The position numbers and the translations under genes were made by a program. From a virus: DNA of 42,758 bases. The stretch is taken from the IMG/VR virus record IMGVR_UViG_3300037847_004763, positions 1-42,758 of that record; one strand, given 5' to 3'. Under the pieces are notes generated by a model. It did not search any database. It saw nothing but the letters and a program-made list of their open reading frames with translations, and was not told the origin of the DNA. Below, piece after piece: positions 2,152-42,758 of this stretch (the first letter of the stretch is position 1; every line of letters begins with the position of its first letter).

Positions 2152-4566
2152 ATGTCGAAGCTTCCTGCCTTCGTTCGTTCACTTCCTGCTGCCTGGGCTA
2201 CATGCCCCATCTATGGCAAAGGCGTCAAGCTTCCCTCCGGTAAAGAGGCTTGCGGTAAATCTCCTCTCGGTAAGACGCACCACGAAGATTGGTCTCCTGC
2301 TGAGACTGCGCTGCACATTGAGCGCAACCCTGACCAGTTCAAAGCTGTTGGTGTCTTCACCGGACCACGCAGCAATGGCTTGGTCATTCTTGACATTGAC
2401 GCCAACCTGGCTCAGCTGAAAAAGAAGTGGGGCAAAGACCTTGCTGCTGCACCGGTTATTGAGTCAACCAAGATAAATGCAGCCAAGTACCTCTTTTACG
2501 TTCCACGGGAGTACTGGGGTGAGGTTGATGGTCTGAGCCTTAGCGCCAGCAATGAAGGCTGGGAGGTGCTGTGGGGCCGTCAGGGGCTTGTAGGCGGCGC
2601 TTACAAGGATCAGGGTGTCTATACGCAGGAAGGCGACTTCGAGGCGATTCCAGAGGCTCCTGAGTGGCTTCTGGCATATATGAAGGAGTCTTTTCGTGGC
2701 AAGCAAAAGACTGGCGAAGGCAAAAAGGATCCGCGTTATGGGATGCGCTCCACCGAGGAGCTTTGCCTGATCGTTAAAAACTGCCTGACGGTTGTGCAGC
2801 CGCAGGGACGTGGCAGTGAAGACCAGTGGTGGCGCATTGGCGCAATGATTCACTCTGAGTTGCCTGGTGATGAGGGGCTCGACTTGTGGCGTGAGTGGTC
2901 GCAGCGTGACGATGAGTACGCCGACGACTGGCAAAACAACGATCCATGCGCTGATCGCTGGGAGTCCGGTTTTAAGTCAGGTGGTGGCTTGGGTTTGGGC
3001 AGCTTGATCACGCTGGCTGATCACTACGACCCAGATAGAAACCGCTTCGTGAATGACCCTGCTGCAAAGCAGGTGATTGAAGAAATCAACCAGATGGCGG
3101 TTTCGTTCCGTCAGGCTGTTCTTCCGTTTGAGCAGGTCATTGAGAAGGCCAAGAAATATCTGGAGCTGGATAACCCTGCTGAGATGAATTACAACCTCAA
3201 TAACTTGGCGCTCCAGGCCGGTTATCGAGACCAGATCTCGCTGGAGAAACTGATTGTTGATCAGATTCAGTTTGAGGGTGCAAAGGGATTAATGGGGGCG
3301 CAGGATTTGATGGATAGCGATCAGGAACGCAACTACCTGATTCCTGATGTGTTGCCGCACCCCTCTGTGGTGCTGATCTATGGCGCTGGCGGTGATGGCA
3401 AGTCCATGTCGGCTTGGACTATTGCGAAACACATTGCGACTGGTGCTCCCTTCATCGTCAGGGGTAAGCCCGTTCCAGTTGAAAAAGGTCCGGTGCTGCT
3501 GCTGAATGGTGATCAGCCGCTGGTGCAGCTCAAAGAGCAGCTTCAGGAGGTTGATTACCCGGCAGACAGCGAGACATTCATTCAGACCGATTGGCAGCTT
3601 CAGCGGTATGCGCAGTTCGTGAAGCTGATGCACGACATCAAGCCGAAGCTGGTGGTCATTGACTCGCTGATCGGCTGTAGCGGTGGTCGTGCCTTTGACG
3701 AAAACAAGAGCGACTTCGCCACGCCGCTGTACTGGCTGACTCGCAACAACGGCGTGCTGTTCCCGGCCACCACGATCCTCATCGTTCACCACGCCAACAA
3801 GCAGGGCGGCTTCAGGGGCACCTCAGCCATTCGTGACGCTGTAGATGAAACGTGGTCGCTGAAAAAGCCTGACAACGCTATTGGCAGCCTTCCGGCCCAT
3901 TGCAGGCTCATCACTATTGAAAAAAGCCGCTCTGGGCGCTCAGGCACTCAACTGGTTATGCGGATGGAAGATGACCTGAGCTTCTCCATCAGTGATTACA
4001 CGCCTGAGGTTGACTCGGGCAACAACGCTCCAAGCAGCATCACCGACCGGGTGCTTCAGCGGTTGCGTGTAATCCATCCTCGAACCGCTACTCGTAGCGA
4101 TCTCAACGCTGACCCTGTTATTGGCGGCAACGTCGCCGCTATTCGCAAATCGCTCCAACGCTTAGAGAAGCGGAATTTGATTGAGGTGGTTGGTTCCGTT
4201 CCAACCGGTGATGGGAAGAACACTTCTGATGTCTATAAAGCAGTTCTCGCGTGCGGGGCCCTGCGAGAGAGTGTCCCACCTTCGGAAAACCCTGTTGCTG
4301 GAACGGATTTAGGATGGGACACCTCGGTTAAAAACGAGGAAGTGTCCCACCTTGCTGGAGCGCAGGACGCCCCTGGAGCGGACGAACCAGATCAAGATGG
4401 GACACCTTCTCAAAAAACAGGTGAGTGTCCCACCTTAAAATCCAGTGCTGAAGCGGGAAGTGCCAAGATGGGACAGCCTGAGCAATATCCCCGCGCGAGG
4501 GAGGACGAACGGACCAAGGATGAGTTGAATGGGTCTCGTGATCAGGCTTGGAACATGTGGGGTTGA
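2152..4566 (+). CDS. PrimPol-type primase fused to a RepA-like helicase/ATPase
   Basis: 804 residues. The N-terminal ~200 residues look like a bifunctional primase-polymerase: LVILDIDAN with the metal-binding DxD at 81-83, following a YGKG...GKSPLG entry segment. The centre is a RecA-fold ATPase of the RepA/AAA_25 kind: Walker A GAGGDGKS at 411-418, Walker B LVVIDS with Asp 504, then IVHHANKQGGFRGTSAI, typical of RepA-like hexameric helicases. A winged-helix-like segment follows (about 620-690), then a low-complexity tail from about 700 to 804. It would prime and unwind DNA at the fork ahead of the phage PolA. The tail coincides with an inverted repeat array at DNA level (4271-4476), and its protein sequence looks dictated by those repeats. 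First gene of the plus-strand arm, followed by a terminator. Confidence 0.9.
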   Translation: MSKLPAFVRSLPAAWATCPIYGKGVKLPSGKEACGKSPLGKTHHEDWSPAETALHIERNPDQFKAVGVFTGPRSNGLVILDIDANLAQLKKKWGKDLAAAPVIESTKINAAKYLFYVPREYWGEVDGLSLSASNEGWEVLWGRQGLVGGAYKDQGVYTQEGDFEAIPEAPEWLLAYMKESFRGKQKTGEGKKDPRYGMRSTEELCLIVKNCLTVVQPQGRGSEDQWWRIGAMIHSELPGDEGLDLWREWSQRDDEYADDWQNNDPCADRWESGFKSGGGLGLGSLITLADHYDPDRNRFVNDPAAKQVIEEINQMAVSFRQAVLPFEQVIEKAKKYLELDNPAEMNYNLNNLALQAGYRDQISLEKLIVDQIQFEGAKGLMGAQDLMDSDQERNYLIPDVLPHPSVVLIYGAGGDGKSMSAWTIAKHIATGAPFIVRGKPVPVEKGPVLLLNGDQPLVQLKEQLQEVDYPADSETFIQTDWQLQRYAQFVKLMHDIKPKLVVIDSLIGCSGGRAFDENKSDFATPLYWLTRNNGVLFPATTILIVHHANKQGGFRGTSAIRDAVDETWSLKKPDNAIGSLPAHCRLITIEKSRSGRSGTQLVMRMEDDLSFSISDYTPEVDSGNNAPSSITDRVLQRLRVIHPRTATRSDLNADPVIGGNVAAIRKSLQRLEKRNLIEVVGSVPTGDGKNTSDVYKAVLACGALRESVPPSENPVAGTDLGWDTSVKNEEVSHLAGAQDAPGADEPDQDGTPSQKTGECPTLKSSAEAGSAKMGQPEQYPRAREDERTKDELNGSRDQAWNMWG
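4271..4476. repeat. Alternating inverted iteron array (candidate replication origin)
   Basis: Six copies of a 10-base core, GTGTCCCAYC, alternate in orientation. GTGTCCCACCTT is at 4271, 4342 and 4425; GATGGGACA is at 4313, 4396 and 4467. Relative to the PrimPol frame each set falls in all three codon phases (1,0,2 for both), so the repeats are conserved as DNA and not as protein. Arrays like this serve as origin iterons or as autoregulatory sites for replication proteins. Confidence 0.7.
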
Positions 4567-37429: not shown

Positions 37430-38680
37430 CTACCAAACACGATAGTTAGTGGATCCCATGGTTTCGGGTTTAGCCAAGTTGAATACTTGTAGGCATAGAT
37501 AGCCCAAAGCGTCGAAGGCATGGTCAACACCGAGGTTTTTGTTGGGTAGTCCCGTTCCAGGGGCGTAGGTGAGGGTGCGGAGGGCTTTGATTAGTTCTTT
37601 GCAGCGGGGGTGGATGAACATGCGGCGCGTTCCAGTTGCATCCAGGAGTGCTGTGTTGACGCAGGTGATTTTGTCGCGGATTTTCCAGGGGGCGCGGGGG
37701 GTGGAGACGGTGAAGCCGGATTTGCGGAGGATGCTGTGGTCGGTGGTGCCGACGCCTTGGGTTTTGCGGGCTCCGCCGGTGGGGTCTGGGCAGCTGATGA
37801 TGCGACGATCCACGCCGTAGCGGTTTTGCACTTCTTCGCAGAAGTCCCAGGTGGTTGCGCCGCCGGTCATGATGATTTCGTCGAAAATCCAGAGCACGTC
37901 GCCTTTTTTGACGGCGCAGATGCCGGTCATTGGGTCGACGTTGAAGTCGACTCCGAGCAGTAGGGGCAAGACGGGGAGGTCTTTGACGTCTTTGCTGATG
38001 TTGTCGTCGGCGAAGCTGATGGCGACGAGGCCGCTTAGGTTCTCGAAGGACGCTTCGAATTCCTGGCGGAACGTGCGCGTATCAAGCTGAGCGCGGGCTG
38101 CGGCGACTTCCTCGGGTGGGACGTTGCCGCCTTGGATGGTTGTGTAGCACCAGCGCTGCCAGTCGCCGGTTTTGTCTTCTGGGACATAACACCACATGTC
38201 GTAGAACCAGCTTGCCGTACCATCCGGCGTGCTGATGAACAGTGCCCAGCCTTGTTTGTCGGCGAGGGCGGGGCGGATGACTTCGAACCAGACAGCGGAT
38301 TCCATGAAAGCCGCCTCGTCGAGTACTACACCAGAGAGGCTGCGGCCGCGAAGGGCCATGGCGTTTTCGGTGCCTTTGAGTTCGATGGTTGCGCCGTTGA
38401 CGAGTTCGATTTTGAGGTCGGTTTCGTTTTTGCTACGTACCAGGACAGGTGGGATTATCTTTTTTAGGACCTTCCAGGCGATGTCTTTCGCCATTCGGTA
38501 GGTGGGTGCGCAGTAAAAGAAGGTTTCGCCGGGGGAGTTGGCGGCCTTTTGTAGTAGTTCTATGCAGGCTAGGTAGGACTTGCCGAAGCGGCGGCCGGCG
38601 ACGAGGACGCGGAAGCGTTTTTGGCTGGCGAATACTTCGTATTGGGCTGGTTTTAGTGCGACATCAATCGTTTTCGACAT
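37430..38680 (-). CDS. terL: Terminase large subunit
   Basis: 416 residues. ATPase: Walker A GRRFGKS (29-35), Walker B SGVVLDEAA with D121/E122, coupling motif ISTPDG (149-154). Nuclease: VDFNVDP with Asp 245 and NLGVDHAFDALGY with D386 and D390 as further metal ligands, the RNase H-like fold. It packages DNA into the procapsid with the small subunit and portal. Overlaps the terS stop by 17 bases. The adjacent unusual non-coding stretch (39180-39540) could hold the packaging recognition site. Confidence 0.95.
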   Translation of the reverse strand: MSKTIDVALKPAQYEVFASQKRFRVLVAGRRFGKSYLACIELLQKAANSPGETFFYCAPTYRMAKDIAWKVLKKIIPPVLVRSKNETDLKIELVNGATIELKGTENAMALRGRSLSGVVLDEAAFMESAVWFEVIRPALADKQGWALFISTPDGTASWFYDMWCYVPEDKTGDWQRWCYTTIQGGNVPPEEVAAARAQLDTRTFRQEFEASFENLSGLVAISFADDNISKDVKDLPVLPLLLGVDFNVDPMTGICAVKKGDVLWIFDEIIMTGGATTWDFCEEVQNRYGVDRRIISCPDPTGGARKTQGVGTTDHSILRKSGFTVSTPRAPWKIRDKITCVNTALLDATGTRRMFIHPRCKELIKALRTLTYAPGTGLPNKNLGVDHAFDALGYLCLQVFNLAKPETMGSTNYRVW

Positions 38681-41200: not shown

Positions 41201-41220
41201 AGGCTGAGACTCACGAGACC

Positions 41221-41249
41221 CAACACTAAACACACGAACCACTCAAAAC
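41221..41249 (+). repeat. 29-base leader repeat, copy 1
   Basis: CAACACTAAACACACG... ending ACTCAAAAC, one base before the ATG at 41251. Identical over 29 bases to 41666-41694, which stands at the same distance before the ATG at 41696. It has no purine-rich Shine-Dalgarno, so it may act in translation or as an RNA-level control element. Confidence 0.8.
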
Positions 41250-41250
41250 C

Positions 41251-41634
41251 ATGCACCTTGATCTCAAAGCCCAAGACTATCCTCTCTTAATTGACGCAAT
41301 CCACTGGGAGCTGGACCTGCTTGAGGAATTAGATGCAGACGCATCTCCTCGATACAAACGGTTAGTTGAAATCCAAGAGCATATACAAGCTTTTGTTGAT
41401 GACGTTCCAGGGAAGCAGAAAAGGGTTGGATCGTTTATACCCAGGCTGCGGCTCTCCAAACTGAAGCCGCCGTCCCGAGAGTTCCCCTACTACTTCTCAG
41501 AAAACGGCGTGACTGTTTGGCTAAACCAAAAGCAGTATTGGGATTTAAGGAAGGCTTTCTTAGGGCAGGCTAAAGAAGGCGATCCAGTTGCCTTAAAACG
41601 TCTTCAAGGTTTTGGGCCACTACCAAAAAAATAA
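41251..41634 (+). CDS. Hypothetical protein (127 aa)
   Basis: MHLDLKAQDYPLLIDAIHWE, then DVPGKQKRVGSFIPRLRLSK, FPYYFSENGVTVWLNQKQYW. Acidic helical N-terminus (LELLEELDAD-like), a basic middle, and a C-terminal domain ending ALKRLQGFGPLPKK. No known family. It carries the shared 29-base leader, so it is presumably coregulated with the ribbon-helix-helix gene at 41696. Confidence 0.65.
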   Translation: MHLDLKAQDYPLLIDAIHWELDLLEELDADASPRYKRLVEIQEHIQAFVDDVPGKQKRVGSFIPRLRLSKLKPPSREFPYYFSENGVTVWLNQKQYWDLRKAFLGQAKEGDPVALKRLQGFGPLPKK

Positions 41635-41665
41635 AGTTAAGCGGCTAAGCCGTCAAAGTAGGACT

Positions 41666-41694
41666 CAACACTAAACACACGAACCACTCAAAAC
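41666..41694 (+). repeat. 29-base leader repeat, copy 2
   Basis: Exact copy of 41221-41249, again one base before an ATG (41696). The preceding AAGCCGTCAAAGTA (41648-41661) is itself repeated at 41891-41904, inside the end of the same cassette, suggesting local duplication. Confidence 0.8.
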
Positions 41695-41695
41695 A

Positions 41696-41905
41696 ATGAA
41701 AGCTAATCACCTTTCTGTTTCCTGTAGCAGGGAAATGGATTTCAGGATGATTCAGCACCTTGCTGAGTTAAGTGGTCAGTCAGTTTCAGCCATGGCCGGT
41801 AACTGCCTGTCTGAGTACCTGCAAGAAAACTATTTAAGGCTGGCGGAATTCTATGAGGAAGCACGTTCCAGGCTGGATGCTCAGGCAGCCAAGCCGTCAA
41901 AGTAA
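41696..41905 (+). CDS. Ribbon-helix-helix-like protein (69 aa)
   Basis: MKANHLSVSCSREMDFRMIQ, then HLAELSGQSVSAMAGNCLSE: strand (LSVSCSREM), helix A and helix B (SVSAMAGNCLSEYLQEN) with the spacing of small ribbon-helix-helix repressors, plus a C-terminal helix (AEFYEEARSRLDAQAA). Likely a DNA-binding dimer. Its 3' end overlaps the convergent exonuclease gene by 25 bases with no terminator in between. Confidence 0.65.
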   Translation: MKANHLSVSCSREMDFRMIQHLAELSGQSVSAMAGNCLSEYLQENYLRLAEFYEEARSRLDAQAAKPSK

Positions 41906-42687
41906 ACCTCACAACGTTCCAGGAATCGAGATTCAGCGCCTCGCAGTTCAAGCTCGCTTAATTCGCGCAGCTGCGGGGCTCCGGTGCGACGTGCCACCAC
42001 CACATACGCTCCAGCCGCTTTTATGCCGGTGAGACTCTTGAGACCCAAACTGTATGCGCCTAATTGGTCGATGTAGTTGGTGAGCATCTCTTCGCTTCTT
42101 TCGCGTTGACTGGTTTTCCAGTCGATAAGCATTGGCCCCTTGCCTTGAATGTCGAGTAAGGCGTCACACGTTCCAGCAAAACCAGCTGAATGGTGAATGG
42201 AAAATTCGACGGCATGAATGGCGGTTACGTGTTTGCCGATCCAGCCGCGTAGGCCGCGTGCGTAGCCTGCTGCGCTCCAGGGGACTCTAGGAGCGCCTTG
42301 AATGGCTCTTTCGATACCCCATGAGGTGATGGAGCCGGGGCAACGTTCCAGGCCGTCTTTAGAGGTTTTCCAGACGTTGCGTTTGTTGGCGGCTTTGCGG
42401 GCTAATTGGGCTCCGGTTTTGAGGATGTATTCCGCGTGGTTGTGGGCAAGGGTGCCTCGTGTAGCAGCGGTTTCCCGATCTTGTTCGCTACCTGGACGAG
42501 CCAGCCAACGTTCCAGGGCTTGTTTTTGATGATCCGGTGCCGTAGCGCCCAGTATGTGGGTGACGCTATGAAACACGCCGCCAGCGTTGTCCCGATAAAC
42601 GCGCCAGTTGAAATCGGTTCCGGAGTCATCACGCACCAGGGAACTTTTGCGTAACTTACTCAGCCTGGCTTGTGCTTCATTAGCCAT
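41881..42687 (-). CDS. PD-(D/E)XK exonuclease (Cas4/RecB-like)
   Basis: 268 residues. Motifs: GTLAHNHAEYI (H82, E86), then VEFSIHHSAGFAGTCDALLD with E161 and D175, and MLIDWKTSQ with D189 and K191, the (D)...(D)xK core of RecB/Cas4-type nucleases; QLGAYSLGL follows as the conserved Gln helix (motif IV). No four-Cys iron-sulfur cluster as in true Cas4. It would resect DNA ends for recombination or replication along with the SSB-like protein. The gene crosses the window junction in the circular map. The region around it has the densest set of CGTTCCA motifs in the genome. Confidence 0.85.
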   Translation of the reverse strand: MANEAQARLSKLRKSSLVRDDSGTDFNWRVYRDNAGGVFHSVTHILGATAPDHQKQALERWLARPGSEQDRETAATRGTLAHNHAEYILKTGAQLARKAANKRNVWKTSKDGLERCPGSITSWGIERAIQGAPRVPWSAAGYARGLRGWIGKHVTAIHAVEFSIHHSAGFAGTCDALLDIQGKGPMLIDWKTSQRERSEEMLTNYIDQLGAYSLGLKSLTGIKAAGAYVVVARRTGAPQLRELSELELRGAESRFLERCEVYFDGLAA

Positions 42688-42758
42688 GTTTGCGTTAGCT
42701 GATTAACTTTTGGTGGGACTAGATGGTGTGAGCTTACCCAGCCAAATTCATCGCCAAC
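42660..42758. repeat. Terminal direct repeat, right copy
   Basis: Exact copy of bases 1-99. Removing one copy gives a 42,659-bp circle. The sequence does not say whether the virion DNA is circularly permuted (headful) or has defined ends. Confidence 0.95.

Follow-up and report, generated by a model that had tools for sequence, protein, structure and literature searches.

A 256-bp dyad-symmetric element at positions 4246–4501 is probably (we put it at about 0.75) the replication origin of the virus that carries it, lying within the 3′ end of the virus's own initiator gene. Two arguments carry this reading, the parallel with lambda, SaPI/SCCmec and pRN1 and the lack of any other array. Initiator and target appear to evolve as lock and key, since the tags in the DNA and one contact residue of the protein change together in relatives.

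The window, that is, the whole stretch of DNA analyzed, is the entire virus record of 42,758 bp; because its first and last 99 bp (1–99 and 42660–42758) are identical, it looks like a complete genome, circular or terminally redundant. We infer a cyanobacterial host from the plasmid and phage relatives of the initiator: 6 of the 7 plasmid records and 2 of the 5 phage records that it matches are cyanobacterial or come from a cyanobacterial host. The terminase large subunit (37430–38680) is 43% identical to those of cyanophage S-2L and Vibrio phages, about equally close. Elsewhere in the genome, a 37-nt repeat (41217–41253 and 41662–41698, 95% identical, each copy ending in ATG) can be read as an upstream region present twice, once ahead of each of two possible starts.

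An alternating array inside an initiator gene

The features discussed below are as follows.

2152–4566, plus strand: primase-polymerase/helicase initiator gene, 804 aa (Pfam, PHROG, AF2 model)
3301–3807, plus strand: AAA_25/RepA-like hexameric helicase domain, residues 384–552 (Pfam, fold search)
4030–4242, plus strand: predicted winged-helix DNA-binding domain, residues 627–697 (AF2 with 96 sequences; motif-covariation columns)
4144–4146, plus strand: recognition-helix residue 665, codon CGC (Arg), a candidate specificity-determining residue (covariation)
4246–4258, plus strand: 5′ outer arm, CTCGCGTGCGGGG (mirror analysis, CGCG arm search)
4272–4278, plus strand: site 1, TGTCCCA, extended as TGTCCCACCTT to 4282 (motif scan)
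4315–4321, minus strand: site 2, TGTCCCA (motif scan)
4343–4349, plus strand: site 3, TGTCCCA, extended to 4353 (motif scan)
4398–4404, minus strand: site 4, TGTCCCA, extended 4394–4404 (motif scan)
4426–4432, plus strand: site 5, TGTCCCA, extended to 4436 (motif scan)
4469–4475, minus strand: site 6, TGTCCCA, extended 4465–4475 (motif scan)
4489–4501, minus strand: 3′ outer arm (CCCCGCGCGAGGG on the plus strand), mirror partner of the 5′ arm (mirror analysis)
4246–4501, no strand: whole dyad-symmetric element, 256 bp, axis 4373.5, the proposed origin (symmetry)

The N-terminal part of the initiator (residues 13–278) matches the PHROG phage DNA primase family; its AEP primase domain stays below the Pfam limit, and among 10 proteins scanned, including the plasmid protein L272, the relatives L072, L251 and L041 exceed the PF09250 Prim-Pol cutoff. 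Pfam places PriCT_2 at residues 209–289 (E 1.4e-11) and AAA_25 at residues 384–552 (E 4.8e-20). A sequence search of the PDB returned weak matches only; a fold search with the whole AF2 model, which effectively covered residues from about 381 to 618, has RSF1010 RepA (1nlf) at the top by E-value (Z 17–19 over about 381–618) and also finds the helicase part similar to RadA, KaiC, and DnaB. By Pfam and fold search alike, the helicase is of the AAA_25/RepA-like RecA fold and not SF3, and the Pfam scan of the window protein found neither DUF3854, the CyRepA domain, nor RepA_N, the domain of PLE RepA. The C-terminal winged helix, as in pRN1-type initiators, is predicted by AF2 to run helix-helix-helix-strand-strand (helices 627–640, 648–653, and 661–673; strands 677–684 and 691–697), and the tail that follows is predicted to be disordered over residues 701–782. 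The model used here, built from 96 sequences (mean pLDDT 75.5), replaced a poorer one built from 15 (mean pLDDT 58.9).

A first-pass annotation of this DNA had reported six alternating repeats in all three codon phases, and coordinates and phases are exactly as it gave them: TGTCCCA occurs six times in alternating orientation between 4272 and 4475, at the 3′ end of the initiator gene, with GTGTCCCACCTT beginning at 4271, 4342, and 4425 (phases 1, 0, and 2) and GATGGGACA beginning at 4313, 4396, and 4467 (again phases 1, 0, and 2). The window holds 11 copies of TGTCCCA where 4.63 are expected (sd 1.88, the highest count in 100 shuffles being 10); six fall within 204 bp and the other five are scattered, leaving the array as the sole cluster in the genome. 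The site centers are exactly mirror-symmetric, every pair summing to 8747, and the two outer arms, which the annotation had missed, are complementary at 10 of 13 positions and share the axis of the six sites at 4373.5. Of 241 axes compared over 4230–4517 (mean mirror identity 0.25, sd 0.04), this one scores highest, at 0.48. No unwinding or melting element was found in the spacers, since they are not AT-rich (AT content 0.49, equal in both spacer kinds); an AT-rich or A-tract element between the sites was dropped as a candidate on the same figures. In back-to-back spacers, top-strand AAAA is present in 53 of 166 and TTTT in 4. Per-motif logos, in which exact-match shares arise partly by construction, were not used.

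Conservation of the sites and switching of the motif

If the array is read both as DNA and as protein, which of the two is selected? Relatives were drawn from viral contig scans (22 loci in one scan, 10 in another, and the best 80 from each of three that gave 383, 343, and 325) and from a genome contig scan (4 relatives). The sample, including the window, comprised 262 sequences, of which 261 had the gene (it was not found in L022), giving 172 distinct C-termini; 167 were long enough, one sequence being unanchored and four having fewer than 470 nt after the anchor. At least four identical sites of the form TGTC plus three bases occur at the same place in 149 of the 167 distinct loci. The same search in an equal-length control region 210–700 nt upstream never finds more than one; the top-scoring of the 256 possible tetramers gives 2–4 in that region. 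The remaining 18 loci hold 3–9 TGTCC cores in the array region against 0–1 upstream. Named by the three bases after TGTC, the commonest motif is CCA in 71 of the 167 loci, CCC in 33, CAG in 30, CAC in 22, CTA in 4, and CAA in 2, with CTC, CAT, TCA, GCA, and CCT in one locus each.

Removal of sequences at least 97% identical to one already kept, or shorter than 550 residues, reduced the 149 to 96 representatives. Sites within the coding sequence use three codon phases in 60 of these and two in 30; in 39, at least one site lies wholly beyond the stop codon. The reading frame ends less than 300 nt past residue 668 in 40 of the 96, and in the early-ending cases looked at the array runs on into noncoding DNA. 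Median identity to the window protein is 0.60 over residues 1–600, 0.57 over the winged helix, and 0.26 over the tail. Because the sites persist while the tail, at about 26% identity and predicted to be disordered, does not, and because sites pass the stop codon, sequence comparison supports the earlier proposal that selection acts on the array DNA and that the protein tail is a by-product. The annotation had itself named an observation that would count against this, namely relatives with a conserved tail and no DNA repeat; none was found, and the alignment it called for shows repeats persisting as amino acids change, down to the TGTCC cores of the 18 low-count loci.

Several copies of a short site clustered in or next to the initiator gene recall an iteron-like origin. 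The same-orientation (direct) repeats of a classical iteron array are not seen in the representatives: of 492 pairs of neighboring sites, 389 face opposite ways. Of the 96 representatives, 63 have a CGCG arm in the 50 nt ahead of the first counted site, 65 have one in the 60 nt that follow the last, and 50 have both (background, 236 of 2592 windows); 27 of the 96 arrays are dyad-symmetric within 3 bp against 4.9 expected from shuffled spacings. More distantly, the homolog in Synechococcus phage S-CBS4 (L105) has no array by the tail test, and the phage homologs L108 and L109 have none by a first, coarser test. The four genome contig relatives (L101–L104) come from MAG contigs labeled Saprospirales, Planctomycetota, proteobacterium, and Microbacteriaceae and are probably misbinned virus contigs.

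Whole arrays switch motif in concert between lineages; the types include TGTCCCA, TGTCCCC, TGTCCAC, and TGTCCAG, along with less common ones. Of about 700 protein columns, residue 665 of the recognition helix predicts the motif best (mutual information 0.56), followed by residue 648 of the same winged helix (0.34). CCA arrays go with R (44) or K (1) at 665, CCC with K (16), CAG with Q (6) or H (6), CAC with Q (11), G (3), R (2), or T (1), and CTA with R (3); single cases are CAA with Q, GCA with H, and CCT with K. Put as match rates, Arg goes with CCA in 44 of 45, Lys with CCC in 16 of 16, and Gln, His, or Gly with CAC or CAG in 26 of 29; the exceptions are L032 and L051 (CAC, Arg), L058 (CAC, Thr), and L096 (CCA, Lys). 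Arg or Lys facing G, and Gln or His facing A, would be chemically sensible contacts. K666 and R670 of the same helix are invariant, and we match them to the TGTCC half of the site, which is near-constant. Six relatives (L049, L053, L056, L057, L060, and L067) have mixed arrays of several TGTCC+2 variants, five of them with Gln at 665; these possibly reflect a loosened specificity or arrays partway through a motif switch.

Among near pairs (core identity at least 0.75), residue 665 differs in 75% of the 194 pairs with different motifs versus 18% of the 309 with the same motif, ranking first of 704 columns. In a tree built from residues 1–600, 17 of the 190 branches carry a motif change and 20 a change at residue 665, with 9 common to both (p 3.5e-6, about 0.002 corrected for 583 columns; first of 583 variable columns); the coincidence is thus partial, 665 staying unchanged on 8 of the 17 motif-change branches. 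The next six co-changing columns are 685, 648, 689, 650, 682, and 690, so that each of the top seven belongs to the winged helix; this domain has 12% of all columns but supplies 12 of the top 20. The number of parsimony steps that the motif needs declines gradually in the 3′ direction along the gene, from 23–25 in N-terminal windows to 14 in the winged helix, and linkage may contribute part of the covariation. Because residue 665 covaries with the motif, the winged helix of the initiator very probably binds the array within its own gene, as the annotation had proposed when it described a gene carrying the binding sites of its own product.

Plasmid counterparts and the function of the element

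Arrays of this kind are not confined to phages. Of 22 cyanobacterial plasmid initiator genes, 15 contain in-gene arrays of mixed orientation, defined by at least five copies of an 8-mer, a count exceeding those in 100 shuffles and in the 5′ part of the same gene; a plasmid stretch without an annotated initiator gene (L287) and three phage records (L105, L108, L109) stand outside the 22. Their motifs differ from those of the phages (examples are TTGTCCAA, GTGTTAGG, TGTTGACC, and AGTGTCGC, and GGTGGAAC is common to three Nostoc plasmids), and the array-bearing initiators scanned span the AAA_25, DUF3987, and VapE helicase types. In four whole plasmids the 8-mer is nearly confined to the array (11 of 11, 8 of 10, 10 of 13, and 11 of 12 copies). 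The seven genes below the test are L112, L111, L276, L107, L271, L283, and L286. In Nostoc C057 (L110) the array is inside the initiator gene; in Aulosira laxa NIES-50 plasmid4 (L112), whose initiator is 76% identical, the stop codon comes earlier and the same motif follows it in four copies, under the threshold. Parts of some plasmid arrays are in-phase 12-bp tandem repeats, which makes the case for selection on DNA weaker in those plasmids than in the phages. Flanking the arrays of L106, L110, and L113 are runs rich in C (5′) and in G (3′), possibly the counterpart of the phage outer arms. No viral relatives of the Anabaena plasmid protein turned up in a scan for them. Three co-resident plasmids of Crinalium PCC 9333 have three different motifs, and two of Nostoc HK-01 also differ; strict incompatibility was rejected as the driver of switching, since plasmids D and E, co-resident in Nostoc TCL26-01, have GGTGGAAC in common.

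How might such an element start replication? The initiator, with its primase-polymerase, PriCT-2, RepA-like hexameric helicase and winged-helix parts, would bind the six alternating sites through the winged helix; the mirror layout would then place two oppositely facing complexes around the axis, for example two helicase rings, and these complexes would open the DNA and prime both strands. A two-ring assembly at the dyad is a tentative proposal, somewhat short of an even chance. Of the checks that the annotation had suggested, GC skew shows no extremum at the array in the window, and the cumulative-skew maximum lies within 1 kb of the array in only two of the four whole plasmids.

The alternative that survives best, though we consider it distinctly improbable, is that the array is a control locus, serving initiator self-titration or plasmid copy pairing, with replication starting elsewhere. 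The incA locus of P1 is a control locus of this kind, the array sits at the end of the gene, and the evidence for binding fits control and origin alike; but there is no second motif cluster in the 42.8-kb record, and four whole plasmids hold 0–3 stray copies, so that an initiator of this specificity would have no other array to start from. Less probable still is that another protein (a repressor, partition protein or host factor) binds the array and that linkage together with module exchange produces the winged-helix covariation. The gradual 3′-ward fall in parsimony steps is what linkage predicts, and the winged helix holds 12, not all, of the 20 top columns; yet the top column is a single recognition-helix position, residues 601–626, equally near the array, are missing from the top 15, and the residue recurs with the motif across lineages. 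That the array is a by-product of a repeated low-complexity protein tail is highly unlikely. The tail is of low complexity, and some plasmid arrays include in-phase 12-bp tandem repeats, but the phage sites stand in both orientations and all three phases, pass the stop in 39 of 96 representatives, and encode a diverged tail predicted to be disordered, which refutes this explanation for the phage family. An RNA-level element in the mRNA (a hairpin, terminator or structured RNA) has equally little in its favor: back-to-back sites can form a hairpin and one terminator-like match lies at 4435–4419 on the minus strand, but nothing within 3900–4900 matches Rfam, terminator-like matches are at chance level (2 versus 1.2), and motif switching follows the DNA-binding helix.

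Read as an origin, the element offers a testable candidate for a large uncultivated phage family, and the plasmid arrays offer candidates for many cyanobacterial plasmids, whose replication origins are poorly known. We give roughly even odds to a broader proposal, in which an in-gene origin with alternating sites on one dyad is a design common to cyanobacterial phages and plasmids, its identity set largely by one recognition-helix residue and the design adopted with three or more types of helicase (AAA_25, DUF3987, and VapE); origin specificity and compatibility would then be predictable from sequence, because that one residue largely sets identity. The natural series of initiator/target switches, together with the proposed specificity residue, opens a joint change of specificity to direct test and could supply cyanobacterial genetics with replicons compatible with one another.

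Relation to known replication systems

Binding of repeats by the C-terminal part of a replication protein is familiar from P4, in which the type I repeats of crr are bound by the α C-terminus. In lambda, the excerpts available describe an origin within the o gene (PMC7157519) made of four 19-bp iterons (PMC3985674). The likeness, so far as those excerpts go, lies in having initiator-binding repeats inside the initiator gene, the binding being predicted in the phage described here. The lambda O repeats all point one way, and O is not known to be a primase-helicase, whereas the six sites here have alternating orientations about a dyad and differ in motif from one relative to another.

SaPI Rep and SCCmec Cch2 are helicase initiators whose C-terminal domain, in the part of the source consulted, recognizes short repeats adjoining their own gene (PMC7581432). 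Those arrays are described there as downstream of the gene, in contrast to the phage array, which lies mostly inside the coding sequence and alternates; the phage initiator also has a PrimPol part and a RepA-like helicase. ORF904 of the archaeal plasmid pRN1 joins primase, helicase, and winged helix, with the origin at the 3′ end of the gene, according to the portion of text available (PMC4234260); it differs, on that portion, in its SF3 helicase and in a stem-loop of about 100 bp downstream of the gene in place of a repeat array. For PolpTN2, a winged helix is proposed to read the origin, in the passage at hand (PMC5862659).

Covariation of a DNA-binding domain with origin repeats is described, in the sections available, for PLE RepA_N and its ori and for the iteron-related domain of geminivirus Rep (PMC8263062, PMC10653810). 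Going by those sections, the proteins are unrelated to the phage initiator and the PLE origin is a noncoding region, whereas in the phage one recognition-helix position tracks base changes of an in-gene array. CyRepA and CyRepX, as partial texts present them, are cyanobacterial plasmid replication proteins of the DUF3854/DEXD type (PMC10079941, PMC10899382); the word “iteron” is absent from those two texts, and, in contrast to CyRepA, the window initiator is without DUF3854 by Pfam.

Within the literature searched, parts of which were available as excerpts, no in-gene alternating array is recognized for PrimPol initiators. The annotation's view that an alternating iteron origin in a PrimPol-encoding cyanophage would be new therefore needs dividing. 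Initiator-gene origins are already known from lambda O, as is initiator/origin covariation from PLE and geminiviruses; what is new, as far as the literature searched shows, is the combination, an array that lies inside the gene, alternates, has dyad symmetry, and has repeatedly switched motif in concert, with the switches linked to a single position of the recognition helix.
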